In this document: positions 3,493 through 53,170 of the stretch, in pieces
Layout: every line of letters starts with the position of its first letter
Position numbering within the stretch: the stretch's first letter is position 1
Assembly (NCBI GenBank): GCA_902785105.1
Contig: CACZXF010000001.1
Span: 51,124 to 115,123 of the forward strand
DNA: 64,000 nucleotides
Source: an uncultured Eubacteriales bacterium
GTDB lineage: Bacteria; Bacillota; Clostridia; Christensenellales; Aristaeellaceae
Direction: 5' to 3'
Program-made: the position numbers and the translations under genes
The notes under the pieces: model-generated
What the model saw: only the letters and a program-made list of their open reading frames with translations
Told to the model about the DNA's origin: nothing
Database searches by the model: none

Positions 3493-4421
3493 TCGTCGTC
3501 CTCGGGGCGATATTCGGTGTCGTCCCAGTTCTCCGGGCGGAGGCCGATGTTGGTGGCCGCGCCCTCGATGCGGGTGTTCATGAAGGTCTCGCAGAGCCAG
3601 TTGGCGTAAGAGACGGTGATGAGCTTGTTGAAGGCCACCATGAACACGAAGTACAACAGCGTCAAGCCCAGCAGGATGTACTGGGTCGCGCCGGGCAGCA
3701 GACGGATCAGCACCACCGCCAGAATCGGCACCGCCAGCGTCAGCAGCTTGAACAGCACCGCGAAGGGCAGCCGCCCGATTGTCAGCAGCAGTGCGTTGCG
3801 GATGACGTCCCTCAGCTTCAGTTCATAGGTCACCATCAGCACGTACATCAGCATGGTCATCATCGACCAGATGATCGCCGCCAGCACCAGCAGCGCCACG
3901 GGCAGCATGAATATGGGCGAGGCCTTCGCCATGTCGCCATAAAACTGCACGCCGATGAACACCAAAAACGGAAGCGCGCCGGTGATAATGCTTACGGGCA
4001 GAGCCTGCTTCCAGTTGCCCTTGACGGCGTCCCAGAAATCGCTGAGCACGAAGCTGTGCTGATCCCGCGCCCAGTTGCGCAGCACGTAGGTGATGCCCGC
4101 GTTGAAGGGGCCCGTAATGGCGATGCAAGGCCAGAGGATCATCAGCCACATGGAGATGACGTTCAGAAAGTCCTCGTTGGCGTAGGTGACGGACTCATTT
4201 AACTGCATGCCGTTCATCAGCACCAGGTTCATCACCGTCCATATGATGGCGGGAATCCAGCACACCAGATACAGCAGATTGATGCCCACCAGCGACGACC
4301 AGCGCACCTTCAGCACCGCGCCGAACAGCTCCAGCCGGTTCGCCGGCAGGTCTGCCACCGTCATGTCGGCCTTGCCCTGCTTGCCGTAGAAATAATTGTT
4401 CATCATGTCCTTGAAAGCCAT
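3489..4421 (-). CDS. DUF624 (YesL-like) integral membrane protein
   Basis: 310 aa from the ATG at 4421, which has GGAGG 8 nt upstream; an in-frame start at 4445 lacks a site. About six hydrophobic segments are visible (for example LVGINLLYLVCWIPAIIW, ISMWLMILWPCIAI, FMLPVALLVLAAIIW, ILLGLTLLYFVFMVAF). The GPFNAGITYVLRNWARDQHSFVLSDFWDAVKGNWKQ region, read in parts, matches DUF624 (YesL) proteins, often found near carbohydrate uptake genes in Bacillota; function unknown. The acidic C-terminus is cytoplasmic by prediction. The ATGA overlap with the U32 gene suggests one operon. Confidence 0.85.
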   Translation of the reverse strand: MAFKDMMNNYFYGKQGKADMTVADLPANRLELFGAVLKVRWSSLVGINLLYLVCWIPAIIWTVMNLVLMNGMQLNESVTYANEDFLNVISMWLMILWPCIAITGPFNAGITYVLRNWARDQHSFVLSDFWDAVKGNWKQALPVSIITGALPFLVFIGVQFYGDMAKASPIFMLPVALLVLAAIIWSMMTMLMYVLMVTYELKLRDVIRNALLLTIGRLPFAVLFKLLTLAVPILAVVLIRLLPGATQYILLGLTLLYFVFMVAFNKLITVSYANWLCETFMNTRIEGAATNIGLRPENWDDTEYRPEDDE

Positions 4422-50989: not shown

Positions 50990-51152
50990 TCCTGCACAGG
51001 TCGCAGTCCGGCAGGATCACCCGCTCCGCCTCGGCCCAGAATCGGTCAAAGTCTTCACTGTCAAAGCTCCCATCTTCCTCCACCTTTAACAGCCCGGTGT
51101 CGATCGCAATGGCCCGGGCTATCTCGATCTTCGGAACCGGCGTATACTTCAT
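50799..51152 (-). CDS. phage protein with GLLK-motif N-terminus
   Basis: 117 aa. MKYTPVPKIEIARAIAIDTGLLKVEEDGSFDSEDFDRFWAEAERVILPDCDLCRKLSEK (in parts) is protein-like and paralogous to the N-terminus of the 50380-50697 gene. The last 55 residues, including LVPLAILAGLLIGAAAALL, are read antisense to the truncated plus-strand gene, so the true end is doubtful. AGGAGG lies 8 nt before the ATG. Confidence 0.5.
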   Translation of the reverse strand: MKYTPVPKIEIARAIAIDTGLLKVEEDGSFDSEDFDRFWAEAERVILPDCDLCRKLSEKMTHEQCHDGADQGADHGTDDAADEHIAPVAGGFDFRLVPLAILAGLLIGAAAALLSKL

Positions 51153-51177
51153 GTGCTCGCCTCCTCGCCGCCCGGCC

Positions 51178-51282
51178 TCATGCCGGGCGGGTTTCTGCCT
51201 CTAAATGATTAAGGCCTTCCTGAATCAGCACGCGGATGATTTCCGTATAGCTCATGCGCGTATAGCGTTCATCCATGCACAT
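51178..51282 (-). CDS. short ribbon-helix-helix-like phage protein, N-terminus uncertain
   Basis: MCMDERYTRMSYTEIIRVLIQEGLNHLEAETRPA, 34 aa, is close to the end of the 52516-52692 protein (RYTRLSYAEIIRMLIQAGL). A plus-strand consensus promoter (51298-51327) lies in its upstream codons, so either the longer N-terminus is lost or the gene starts at a rare codon near 51330. Possibly a remnant. Confidence 0.4.
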   Translation of the reverse strand: MCMDERYTRMSYTEIIRVLIQEGLNHLEAETRPA

Positions 51283-51297
51283 CTTGTATTTTGTTTC

Positions 51298-51327
51298 TTG
51301 ACTTCGGTATTCTGTTTCCGGTATAAT
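51298..51327 (+). promoter_or_regulatory. promoter of the 51.3-51.7 kb structured RNA
   Basis: TTGACT (51298-51303), 18-nt spacer, TATAAT (51322-51327); the transcript would start at the beginning of the inverted repeat. Confidence 0.8.
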
Positions 51328-51333
51328 GGTCTT

Positions 51334-51680
51334 GCCCTTATATGGGCAATGGAAAGGAGTGAGGCCGTTTGGATAAACTCTTGAAATTGCCCCGTTCCCG
51401 TGGGTTCGCCTGCTGATGCTAATGGGCATTTCAGCGGAACCGCCACCGCTTAAGTGAAGCGCAGTCCCAAGAAGGGGGCGTTGCGTGCTTCCCCCTGCGC
51501 GGGATGCGGCCTAAGGCACCTGGTCGCAACGGTCAATTCTCGATGGTAAGGCAATTCCACCGGGATGAGACCGGTCCCGCGTGGGTGCAAGCCTGCACGG
51601 GTGAACAAATGGTGGGAAGTGCCCGGCGCGACGCAACCGCGCCGGGCGCTTTTCGTCTCACTCCTTGCCATTGCCCATAT
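51334..51680 (+). ncRNA. candidate structured RNA with 24-bp terminal inverted repeat
   Basis: 51340-51363 and 51657-51680 are inverted repeats with 23 of 24 matches, closing a 293-nt interior. Inside are at least six hairpins: CGCTT/AAGCG (51446-51460), GGGGG/CCCCC (51473-51495), ACCGG/CCGGT (51568-51584), GTGCA/TGCAC (51585-51598), GCCCGGCGC/GCGCCGGGC (51620-51647) with TTTT after it, and GAAATTGCCC/GGGCATTTC (51383-51432). A 15-codon TTG frame with AAAGGAG upstream lies at 51370. No large ORF on either strand. It is either a large structured RNA or a miniature inverted-repeat element; the promoter favours RNA. Not matched to a class from memory. Confidence 0.6.
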
Positions 51681-51691
51681 CGGCCTCCGCC

Positions 51692-51928
51692 CTATGCGCC
51701 GGAACGGTGCATCGCCGGTGCCCGGCTGTCCGTCAGGCCCAGCAGGTAGTCCGTCGAACACCCGAACATCCGCGCCATCTGCACCAGCTTGTCGGAGGGG
51801 ATCACCCCGCTTGCAATGTAATTCCAGTAGGTCCTCGAAGTCACGCCCAGGGTCCGGCTCAATGCCTCCTTCGACATCTGCGCCCGCCCGCGCTCCGCTT
51901 CGATGTTCCCTAAAATCACAGGCTCCAA
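51692..51928 (-). CDS. XRE family transcriptional repressor
   Basis: 78 aa, TTG start at 51928 (GGAGGTG 7 nt upstream). NIEAERGRAQMSKEALSRTLGVTSRTYWNYIASG is a Cro/C1 helix-turn-helix, followed by FGCSTDYLLGLTD, the classic end of such domains. Divergent from the DUF6173 gene with which it shares a 67-nt promoter region: the likely lysogeny repressor. The longer frame is rejected. Confidence 0.82.
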   Translation of the reverse strand: MEPVILGNIEAERGRAQMSKEALSRTLGVTSRTYWNYIASGVIPSDKLVQMARMFGCSTDYLLGLTDSRAPAMHRSGA

Positions 51929-51941
51929 TCCTTCACCTCCC

Positions 51942-51971
51942 TTGCGGCCCTCGGCCTGGTCATGGTATAAT
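51942..51971 (+). promoter_or_regulatory. promoter of the DUF6173 gene in the divergent switch region
   Basis: TTGCGG, 18-nt spacer, TATAAT (51966-51971), followed by AAAGGAGG. Overlaps the start region of the repressor gene. Confidence 0.65.
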
Positions 51972-51995
51972 CGCCTCGAAAGGAGGTGATTTGGT

Positions 51996-52400
51996 TTGAA
52001 TATGGCTTTCGACGATCGGTTGTCCACCTTGATTCCCAACTTTGTGAACGTAGTTCCCGAGGTCAATCCTACTCTCCCGACAGTTCTCGAAAATGCTAAA
52101 GCGTCAACGGCATCGGAGGTCTGCAAGCGATTGGAAACCATCGTGAATAATTTCATGGCGACCCTCGATCCTAGAGAGGAGGTCGGTGTAGCGCTTTCTT
52201 CCTTCGGCGCCGCGCATTTGATCGCCGTTACTGGCTTCCGCGCCATGGGCCCCAATCTGCTGGTCATAACCGGAACCGAAGGCGAACAGCCCGTCACGCT
52301 TGTTCAGCACGTTTCGCAGCTGAGCTTTCTACTCGTTCCGATAAAGCTTGCTTCTTCCGAAACTGAACCGCGTCGCACAATCGGATTTCAGTCGGAATGA
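51996..52400 (+). CDS. DUF6173 family phage protein
   Basis: 134 aa, TTG start at 51996 (GGAGG 9 nt upstream; the ATG at 52002 is an alternative). VGVALSSFGAAHLIAVTGFRAMGPNLLVITGTEG and VTLVQHVSQLSFLLVPIKL are typical of DUF6173 proteins of Clostridia. Unknown role, often beside XRE regulators in prophages. It is the first rightward gene in the switch region. Confidence 0.75.
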   Translation: MNMAFDDRLSTLIPNFVNVVPEVNPTLPTVLENAKASTASEVCKRLETIVNNFMATLDPREEVGVALSSFGAAHLIAVTGFRAMGPNLLVITGTEGEQPVTLVQHVSQLSFLLVPIKLASSETEPRRTIGFQSE

Positions 52401-52491
52401 TTTCAACCCTGGTTGCCGCCAGGTTGATGCCACCCATCACAAGCCCCGTGGAGTTGCCGCTCCTCTGGGGCTTTTCCGTTTTGTCGCTCAT
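52294..52491 (-). CDS. possible 65-aa phage protein, convergent overlap
   Basis: MSDKTEKPQRSGNSTGLVMGGINLAATRVEIIPTEIRLCDAVQF. AGGAGG is 6 nt before the ATG. Its last 35 codons overlap the end of the DUF6173 gene on the other strand, so the end may be artefactual. Preceded by the ribbon-helix-helix gene with the same spacer as seen near 51.17 kb. Confidence 0.35.
   Translation of the reverse strand: MSDKTEKPQRSGNSTGLVMGGINLAATRVEIIPTEIRLCDAVQFRKKQALSERVESSAAKRAEQA
52441..52482 (+). terminator. terminator of the DUF6173 gene
   Basis: AAGCCCC and GGGGCTT pair, with an inner GGAG/CTCC stem, then TTCCGTTTT, about 40 nt after the DUF6173 stop. Confidence 0.7.
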
Positions 52492-52515
52492 GGCTCGCCT
52501 CCTCGCCGCCCGGCC

Positions 52516-52692
52516 TCATGCCGGGCGGTATTCTGGCACCATTTTTTCAAGACCAGCCTGAATCAACATGCGGATTATCTCCGCATACGACAGGCGAGTA
52601 TAGCGTGGGTCCCGCCTCATCATCACAATGGCCTCTTCCATCTCCGCAGAAAGCGCAATGGAACGGCGCATTTCCATTCTTTTCTTTTCCAC
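52516..52692 (-). CDS. ribbon-helix-helix regulator
   Basis: 58 aa, GTG start at 52692 with AAAGGAGG 8 nt upstream. MEMRRSIALSAEMEEAIVMM has the beta-strand then helix order of Arc/CopG proteins, followed by RYTRLSYAEIIRMLIQAGL. It has a perfect promoter and a palindromic operator just upstream, the form of an autoregulated lysogeny gene. Confidence 0.72.
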   Translation of the reverse strand: MEKKRMEMRRSIALSAEMEEAIVMMRRDPRYTRLSYAEIIRMLIQAGLEKMVPEYRPA

Positions 52693-52715
52693 TGTTCGCG
52701 CCTCCTTTCTCTGTA

Positions 52716-52732
52716 GTGTACCATTGGTACAC
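52716..52732. promoter_or_regulatory. palindromic operator before the ribbon-helix-helix gene
   Basis: GTGTACCA and TGGTACAC are inverted arms around a single base, a perfect 16-bp palindrome placed between the minus-strand -10 and the start codon. Confidence 0.65.
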
Positions 52733-52743
52733 CTTATGATTAT

Positions 52744-52772
52744 ATTATACGCACCACTCCACCATTTGTCAA
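52744..52772 (-). promoter_or_regulatory. consensus promoter of the ribbon-helix-helix gene
   Basis: On the minus strand TTGACA (52767-52772), 17-nt spacer, TATAAT (52744-52749). Confidence 0.85.
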
Positions 52773-52814
52773 CAGGTTTTTGGCATTTTTGCACCACTTT
52801 TTTTCATTCATCTA

Positions 52815-52843
52815 TTTACATCTTTGCACTAGTGGTGTATAAT
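52815..52843 (+). promoter_or_regulatory. promoter of the 52865-53170 gene
   Basis: TTTACA (52815-52820), 17-nt spacer, TATAAT (52838-52843); an AGTGGTG box overlaps the spacer, as in the divergent promoter. Confidence 0.8.
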
Positions 52844-52864
52844 GTCATTGTAGGAGGTGGTTTG

Positions 52865-53170
52865 ATGTCTACACAAAAACCGCGTTTCATGGTTACGGTA
52901 AGTGATGAGATGTATGAAGCAATCAATAACTACAGGTTTTCCAATCACTTTAAGTCACAGACATTAGCTATAAACGATTTGATTTCAAAAGGAATAGAAG
53001 CTCTTGGCATCAATGAGCCAAAAGAAGAAGAGCCCGCCATTTCTGACGGACTCACTGAAGTTGAAACAGAATTCCTCAATGTGTTTTCTGAACTGACCCC
53101 TTCAAACCAGCGTCTGCTGCTTGGGATCGGCGCAGTAATTTTGCAAGAGCAAGAAAGGCCTGCTGATTGA
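52865..53170 (+). CDS. Arc-like small phage regulator
   Basis: 101 aa, ATG with GGAGG 8 nt upstream. PRFMVTVSDEMYEAINNYRFSNHFKSQTLAINDLISKGIEALG is the Arc-like strand-helix-helix domain; the C-terminal VETEFLNVFSELTPSNQRLLLGIGAVIL is a helix pair common in element-encoded regulators. Divergent from the 52516-52692 gene. Confidence 0.7.
   Translation: MSTQKPRFMVTVSDEMYEAINNYRFSNHFKSQTLAINDLISKGIEALGINEPKEEEPAISDGLTEVETEFLNVFSELTPSNQRLLLGIGAVILQEQERPAD

Follow-up and report, generated by a model that had tools for sequence, protein, structure and literature searches.

The structured stretch that occupies positions 51298–51680 of the window (that is, of the whole 64-kb stretch of DNA that was analysed) is almost certainly a phage RNA of the FuFi-1 family. 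Comparison with its homologs supports the view that FuFi-1 is a self-contained phage transcription unit, with a predicted promoter and a predicted terminator, that carries a mini-ORF. According to the favoured reading, to which we give a probability of roughly 35–40%, FuFi-1 would be a self-terminating counter-transcript that acts at the immunity switch and is gated by the translation of the mini-ORF, its output being what we infer rather than observe.

Identity and copy number

A covariance search of Rfam identified RF02986 (FuFi-1) at 51411–51652 on the + strand, with 87.8 bits against a gathering cut-off of 59.6 bits and an E-value of 2.3e-17. The match covers the whole model (1–175 of 175), one hairpin of the core displaying an insertion of about 70 nt relative to it. 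In the alignment, the joining strand GGGTGAACAAAT of the window corresponds to the GGUAAACAAA-like strand of FuFi-1, and the 3' terminator hairpin corresponds to the last stem of the model. FuFi-1 is the sole Rfam family above cut-off across the whole 64-kb window. Indeed, none of the GOLLD, ROOL and OLE families reaches it there, these large ornate RNAs resembling FuFi-1 in being structured bacterial or phage RNAs. GOLLD is linked to phages.

The preliminary description, made from the sequence alone, hesitated between a structured phage RNA and a MITE with terminal inverted repeats. The former stands, whereas the MITE, which has in its favour the presence of a 24-nt inverted repeat, was rejected and is now barely conceivable. 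FuFi-1 is present as a single copy in the 3.44-Mb source genome (131 contigs, 92% complete), where exact matches to the first 13 nt of the inverted-repeat arm are found at the two arms only. Furthermore, no target-site duplication of 2–10 bp surrounds the element of the window, the sequence has an Rfam identity and most other copies of the family lack the repeat.

FuFi-1 was reportedly first described by Weinberg and co-workers. A literature search retrieved no paper naming FuFi-1 or RF02986, and the word 'FuFi' only in papers that seem unrelated, judging by their titles; the source paper was outside this search, so that earlier remarks on the features reported here are possible. The Rfam match begins 3' of the start of the ORF and of strands 1–3 described below, and the RF02986 model includes neither the ORF, nor the switch, nor the location in the immunity region.

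Organization of the locus

The features of the locus are the following.

51298–51327, + strand: predicted promoter, TTGACT (51298–51303), 18-nt spacer and TATAAT (51322–51327), 11 of 12 consensus bases
51332–51337, + strand: strand 1, TTGCCC, 5' arm of the first hairpin
51340–51363, + strand: left arm of the 24-nt inverted repeat, spanning strand 2 and the Shine-Dalgarno sequence
51344–51350, + strand: strand 2, GGGCAAT, partner of strand 1 or strand 3
51353–51359, + strand: Shine-Dalgarno sequence, AAAGGAG
51369–51416, + strand: short ORF with a TTG start, MDKLLKLPRSRGFAC, stop TGA at 51414–51416 (from translation, motif counts and codon table)
51386–51392, + strand: strand 3, ATTGCCC, within the ORF, partner of strand 2 or strand 4
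51411–51652, + strand: FuFi-1 core according to Rfam RF02986 (87.8 bits)
51424–51428, + strand: strand 4, GGGCA, in the first loop of the FuFi-1 core
51434–51449, + strand: conserved GC hairpin GCGG-AACCGCCA-CCGC, then TTAAGTG (from the Rfam alignment)
51617–51653, + strand: terminator hairpin (51617–51630/51638–51651) followed by a U run (TTTT)
51657–51680, + strand: right arm of the inverted repeat, 3' of the terminator, complementary to strand 2 plus the Shine-Dalgarno sequence
51692–51928, − strand: small HTH (Cro/CI-type) gene, convergent (Pfam below curated cut-offs, PHROG 7e-10)
51996–52400, + strand: gene of a DUF6173 protein, divergent from the HTH gene (PF19670, 1.9e-13)

Several elements of the preliminary description are thus recovered: a consensus promoter that runs into one arm of an inverted repeat, the repeat itself (96% complementary), an interior that folds strongly and a terminator-like hairpin. 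Two promoter-like sites are found in 51150–52050 against a mean of 0.4 in shuffled sequences. The + strand of 51298–51680 folds at −185.2 kcal/mol (z −6.6), none of 100 shuffles being as good, and the RNA from 51333 to the terminator (51653) at −152 kcal/mol (z −4.1); the − strand of 51298–51680 also folds well (z −4.2). The claim that the stretch has no large ORF holds in that no long one lies wholly inside, but mechanical ORFs of up to 144 aa (+ strand, 51565–51999) and 103 aa (− strand, 51450–51761) overlap it. The 15-codon ORF preceded by a Shine-Dalgarno sequence had been overlooked.

Homologs of FuFi-1

The homologs came from whole-genome searches with Rfam, four pattern scans of viral contigs and one pattern scan of GTDB genomes, giving 69 copies in 68 loci, window included. 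Fifty-three copies were kept with a fuzzy start-motif filter, which biases them toward the presence of the ORF, and 16 more came from the Rfam searches. The start is defined in 66 of the 69 copies and the core in 67, and the tests use subsets of these. Among 50 IMG/VR records picked by core patterns, which are part of 67 viral loci first fetched in this way (the three weakest matches being unused), 27 hold FuFi-1 above the Rfam cut-off. The cut-off was also passed in 2 of 200 genomes of relatives, 3 of 391 of the class and 2 of 398 of the phylum, the source genome of the window being counted and the strict filters of the Rfam family search losing weak matches; the Bacillus subtilis control genome displays a weak RF02986 match below cut-off. 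Twenty-four GTDB loci were retained or merged; 23 of them belong to Clostridia by title, the remaining one being described as just 'bacterium'.

A blastn search with the 51-nt 5' domain of one homolog matched a single phage record, MT835537.1 (a phage scaffold from human faeces), which carries the start motif, the core motif, the tail and two same-strand HTH ORFs downstream. A second homolog matched the same record again, a third had no match in the phage collection and the RNA of the window had none in the plasmid and phage collections. Among relatives from the genus, the only match is one of 37 nt, which falls within the stretch of the HTH gene and comes from a single genome out of 27 others, so that there are no close copies in which the 24-nt arms could be compared. 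Some homologs (L060, L143, L140, L125 and others) display by eye an extra conserved domain, GGTCGCAA...TGG...CCAAAGCA...AAACTGG, between the ORF and the Rfam core, the full RNA reaching roughly 350–420 nt in this subgroup.

A conserved short ORF

FuFi-1 RNAs very probably share a conserved short ORF that is predicted to be translated. Upstream of the Rfam match, the homologs have in common a promoter, a small hairpin, a Shine-Dalgarno sequence and a start codon. The ORF begins in this region, upstream of the Rfam model, and the consensus start of its peptide is M-T-K-L-L-x-L-P. Of 66 distinct copies, 61 have a −10 box with no more than one mismatch 22–75 nt 5' of the ORF, whereas a control region has one in 20 of 63, and a Shine-Dalgarno-like 5-mer lies 4–12 nt ahead of the start in 62 of 64 copies.

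The main evidence comes from 33 distinct copies, window included, that were retrieved with the 3' core or the Rfam model and without use of the ORF. They correspond to 36 copies minus three duplicate cores; four of the 36 (L003, L004, L044 and L194) do not reach the Rfam cut-off, and loci re-matched by a core pattern but fetched with an ORF pattern were excluded. The motif sought was a Shine-Dalgarno sequence followed by ATG, GTG or TTG, the ORF being no longer than 45 codons and containing [LFV]-L-x-x-P close to its start. It is present in 23 of the 33 copies, whereas 0.2 would be expected from shuffled sequences. Ten copies lack it, six of which display a related frame by eye (MFKKLTCPVPFI, MLIKKLSCPVPLI, MASFGEALFLPVRSERKRDA, MPCATIGEALFLSMRSRSKN, MKALLILLCPYKVDA and MKKIVKKFLRYLAP). 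L003 has no ORF starting with ATG, GTG or TTG preceded by a Shine-Dalgarno sequence, and L174 and L185 have no ORF with the motif. In L017 and L190, an in-frame stop at codon 6 ends the mini-ORF after five codons; these two copies are a natural test of the role of the peptide versus that of initiation alone.

A codon table was drawn up from 45 distinct ungapped sequences. The first codon is TTG in 34, ATG in 8, GTG in 2 and TTA in 1, codon 4 specifies Leu, Phe or Val, all 45 have TTG as codon 5 and codon 8 specifies Pro in 44, with all four Pro codons in use; this table is biased, many of the loci having been retrieved or selected by means of a pattern in which parts of the motif are fixed. 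The Shine-Dalgarno sequence, start codon and frame are thus kept across homologs, except in L017/L190, L003, L174 and L185 and, for the frame, L169 and L173. In the latter two, strand 3 is displaced from the start by a number of nucleotides that is not a multiple of three (by eye), and the GUUCC that comes after strand 3 is conserved although it is read in either of two frames (LPVP and LPCS). Therefore, part of the conservation is that of the RNA and not of the peptide, and the peptide beyond the Pro is not conserved as such. The C-termini of the peptides vary among copies. Upstream of strand 3, indels in multiples of three were assessed by eye only, and no number is drawn from them.

Four strands with alternative pairings

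The strands UGCC (1), GGCA (2), UUGCC (3) and GGCA (4) probably constitute a covarying switch, in which either 1:2 and 3:4 or 2:3 would pair. Strands 1 and 2 form the first hairpin, strand 3 corresponds to codons 6–8 of the ORF and strand 4 to the first loop of the core, and their covariation implies mutually exclusive pairings. As a MAFFT alignment of 18 of the 25 short-spacer copies misregisters such short strands, the pairing between the own strands of a copy was compared with that between strands taken from other copies, in place of per-pair counts. Own strands pair better than swapped ones for 2:3 (z 7.1, 0/10000), 3:4 (z 5.0, 0/10000) and 1:4 (z 6.3), while the control pairs 1:3 and 2:4 give z 0.1 and −0.4. 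For 1:2, the z of 14.9 is biased, the hairpin having been selected for pairing; in fixed windows the swap test of this hairpin is weak (238/10000), and in 53 of 66 copies the best hairpin of the strand 1/2 region is better than the average obtained by shuffling that copy.

The use of one sequence per cluster reduces the effect of relatedness on these tests without removing it. With clusters at 75% identity (n=47), z is 6.3 for 2:3 and 4.5 for 3:4, and with clusters at 65% identity (n=19) it is 5.1 and 2.6 (62/10000); when strand 2 is taken from a fixed window, z is 4.7 and 3.0 (30/10000). Individual copies display joint changes of strands 2, 3 and 4: GGTAT, ATACC and AGGGTAT in L191; GAGCAAG, TTTGCTC and AGAGCA in L155; GGCAC, GTGCC and, ahead of the core and by eye, GGCAC in L002. 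If 1:2 and 3:4 were the only real pairings, 2:3 would be expected to behave as the control pairs do. Selection therefore seems to act on one or both of the cross pairings (2:3 and 1:4), so that the RNA would have to choose.

The 2:3 pairing encloses the Shine-Dalgarno sequence and the start codon, and it is the form found in the minimum free energy structure that RNAfold gives for the RNA of the window (51333–51653). The 3:4 pairing crosses the first Rfam stem and is therefore a pseudoknot linking the ORF to the core. The start codon also lies inside a small covarying hairpin (z 5.6, 0/10000; 19/10000 on 19 clusters).

Leader-peptide attenuators and translational riboswitches likewise have alternately pairing strands around a short ORF. 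FuFi-1 differs from them in that no antiterminator was found in the four region pairs compared, in that the gate would act on the mini-ORF rather than on another gene and in that the structured core follows this ORF instead of preceding it. It is conceivable, although unlikely, that FuFi-1 is a switch in the wrong order, in which the pseudoknotted core located after the ORF would license or block its start (2:3 versus 3:4), a supply of ribosomes or a ligand being read at cro/cI and biasing lysogeny.

Terminator and inverted repeat

The two halves of the terminator are strongly matched within copies (own versus swapped, z 31 over 63 copies) and a U tract is present in 67 of 69 copies. A strict terminator scan was negative, perhaps due to the short T run. 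The terminator arms display no pairing with upstream RNA in the four region pairs compared (z 0.3–1.1), among which the 3' arm was set against the 5' domain only; this leaves regulated termination without support there.

Since the right arm of the 24-nt repeat lies beyond the terminator, it would be absent from the terminated RNA. The arms had been thought to join into a closing stem; this was rejected as a family trait, 48 of 53 copies having a 5' region that is not more complementary to their own downstream flank than to every other. Complementarity to the own flank nevertheless recurs in a minority: in 6 of 66 copies (L001, L019, L061, L118, L127 and L140, which beat all swaps), the 5' region finds its best complement in the post-terminator sequence of the same copy, against 2, 1 and 1 of 66 for the controls. 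At the level of the group, the complementarity gives z 5.7 (0/5000 permutations; controls, z 1.2–1.4) and, without the window, z 4.6 (0/5000), but an ungapped version of the test gives z 2.4 only (41/3000). The post-terminator arm is a recurring minority feature, neither a family trait nor a transposon end, and could lock the Shine-Dalgarno sequence in a read-through RNA.

Location in the immunity region

There is little doubt that FuFi-1 belongs to a phage-regulator context. An HTH gene lies downstream in 57 of the 60 copies with at least 1 kb available there. A convergent HTH gene is present in 47 and a same-strand one in 49, the order FuFi→ ←HTH HTH→ being found in 38. Upstream, an HTH gene is found on the same strand in 1 of 58 copies and on the other strand in 27; the HTH profile behind these counts, grown from one repressor, derives from the loci under study and does not amount to an independent library. 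Pfam gives a similar picture for one same-strand downstream ORF per locus (HTH_3 in 35 and Peptidase_S24 in 15, for 48 of 54 listed ORFs), for convergent ORFs (HTH_3 in 24 and DUF739 in 10 of 62) and for upstream ORFs (HTH_3 in 5, for 95 of 127 ORFs). We read this context as a cro/cI region in which FuFi-1 would lie on the Cro side, facing the repressor. Transcription from the predicted promoter would be directed toward the phage repressor, with the geometry of lambda pE.

This geometry suggests the main rival of the favoured reading, a rival which we hold to be unlikely: FuFi-1 could be the leader of a repressor-establishment transcript, as at lambda pE (pRE), occasional read-through of the terminator giving an RNA antisense across cro that is also the repressor mRNA, with the switch and the mini-ORF setting the frequency of read-through. 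The same-strand HTH gene found downstream in 49 of 60 copies fits this proposal, as do five of the nine scanned loci that have no convergent ORF of at least 50 aa close by, in which an HTH or S24 gene comes next on the same strand (L064, L148, L155, L173 and L194), and the tandem FuFi-1 copies ahead of one HTH gene in L095. It has, however, to accommodate a strongly kept terminator (z 31) between FuFi-1 and the repressor gene, the lack of antiterminator pairing in four region pairs, the other four scanned loci, whose next gene encodes a Peptidase_M78 (L073), a DUF3892 protein (L065) or a product without Pfam family (L140 and L182), and the promoter-like sites that separate the terminator from the repressor in several of the nine. 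The order of genes relative to HTH genes resembles that of lambda in 38 of 60 copies, but the window itself has DUF6173 instead. Furthermore, pE is stimulated by CII, whereas FuFi-1 has a near-consensus promoter followed by a structured RNA with a mini-ORF and a terminator.

In L095, from Fournierella massiliensis, the two tandem FuFi-1 RNAs both point toward the one downstream HTH gene, their ORFs starting at 4174 and 4700 on the reversed strand. In L073, L148 and L173, repeated operator-like palindromes and facing promoters are seen by eye after the terminator, before the next regulator gene.

The same orientation bears on the possibility that FuFi-1 is a trans-acting, dual-function small RNA, whose core would act on distant RNAs or proteins and/or whose peptide would act on a host or phage protein, the immunity region being merely where the RNA is carried. 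This we consider unlikely. It agrees with the type given by Rfam (gene; sRNA), with the self-contained unit delimited by a promoter and a terminator and with the conservation of the core and of the peptide start, but the strict orientation toward same-strand HTH genes (49/60 downstream versus 1/58 upstream) suggests a role in cis, and the variable C-termini of the peptides also count against it.

In the window, the HTH gene has matches to HTH_19 (4.8e-5) and HTH_3 (2.9e-4) below curated cut-offs and to a PHROG of transcriptional regulators (7e-10), its TTG start at 51928 being a putative one. The repressor gene that had been proposed as a neighbour is thus upheld as an HTH gene, whereas neither Pfam nor PHROGs names either copy of the sequence called a broken ribbon-helix-helix gene, which is such by look. 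Two direct repeats of 129 nt (51155–51283 and 52493–52621, 77% identical, 1338 bp apart) flank the 51284–52492 stretch that contains FuFi-1, the HTH gene and the DUF6173 gene. The upstream copy contains a sequence that resembles the 3' part of the ORF at 52516–52797 (− strand), down to its end, which would explain the 'broken' gene.

The DUF6173 gene occupies the position where most loci have the same-strand HTH gene, and no + strand HTH ORF is present within the ~1.5 kb examined at this locus. Next come the gene of a protein with a match to a PHROG of transcriptional repressors (52826–53167) and that of a serine integrase. The DUF6173 gene, which is divergent from the small HTH gene, is a candidate immunity partner.

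A proposed counter-transcript gated by translation

Under the favoured reading, the 2:3 fold would enclose the ribosome-binding site and the start codon, and the 3:4 fold would lock codons 6–8 of the ORF into the core as a pseudoknot, so that reading of the ORF and folding of the core should compete. Ribosomes on the mini-ORF would then act as reporters of the cell's translational state and would determine the lifetime of the active fold. The facing HTH gene would be the cro gene and the early operon would cross FuFi-1. A counter-transcript located at the lysis-lysogeny switch would oppose early lytic transcription, either as an antisense RNA or through head-on polymerases, and would favour the repressor side. 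The switch-like location found in most loci, with a small HTH gene facing FuFi-1 and a second one, often of S24 type, beyond it on the strand of FuFi-1, speaks for this reading and resembles the surroundings of lambda cro and cI.

Several points weigh against the counter-transcript. It leaves the ornate conserved fold unaccounted for by itself, since such a transcript needs none; an early operon that crosses FuFi-1 is not borne out everywhere by the upstream ORFs, the nearest one of at least 60 aa being on the − strand in 41, on the + strand in 24 and missing in 4 of 69 copies (crude longest-ORF calling); and, in the window, DUF6173 stands in the place of the repressor. A plain antisense RNA or polymerase collision, for which the transcript would matter and the fold and the ORF would be irrelevant, is very unlikely. 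In 47 of 60 copies, FuFi-1 does run against an HTH gene that is convergent with it, but the conserved sequence, ORF start and covarying strands would be superfluous for such a role.

Like FuFi-1, lambda OOP RNA is a short RNA near the switch, in this case antisense to the cII side of the early operon (PMC5869508). OOP is shorter than FuFi-1 and is not known to have an ornate core or an ORF.

Significance

FuFi-1 belongs to the many bacterial RNA families that are still orphans. The conserved start codon, the testable four-strand switch and the location beside HTH genes provide it with a concrete hypothesis, namely that phages of Clostridia control lysogeny by means of an RNA. These three features are also a reason to look upstream of the Rfam boundary when FuFi-1 is annotated. 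If the switch in the wrong order proved true, FuFi-1 would be a translation-sensing RNA counterpart of the lambda CII-pE system in phages of Clostridia.
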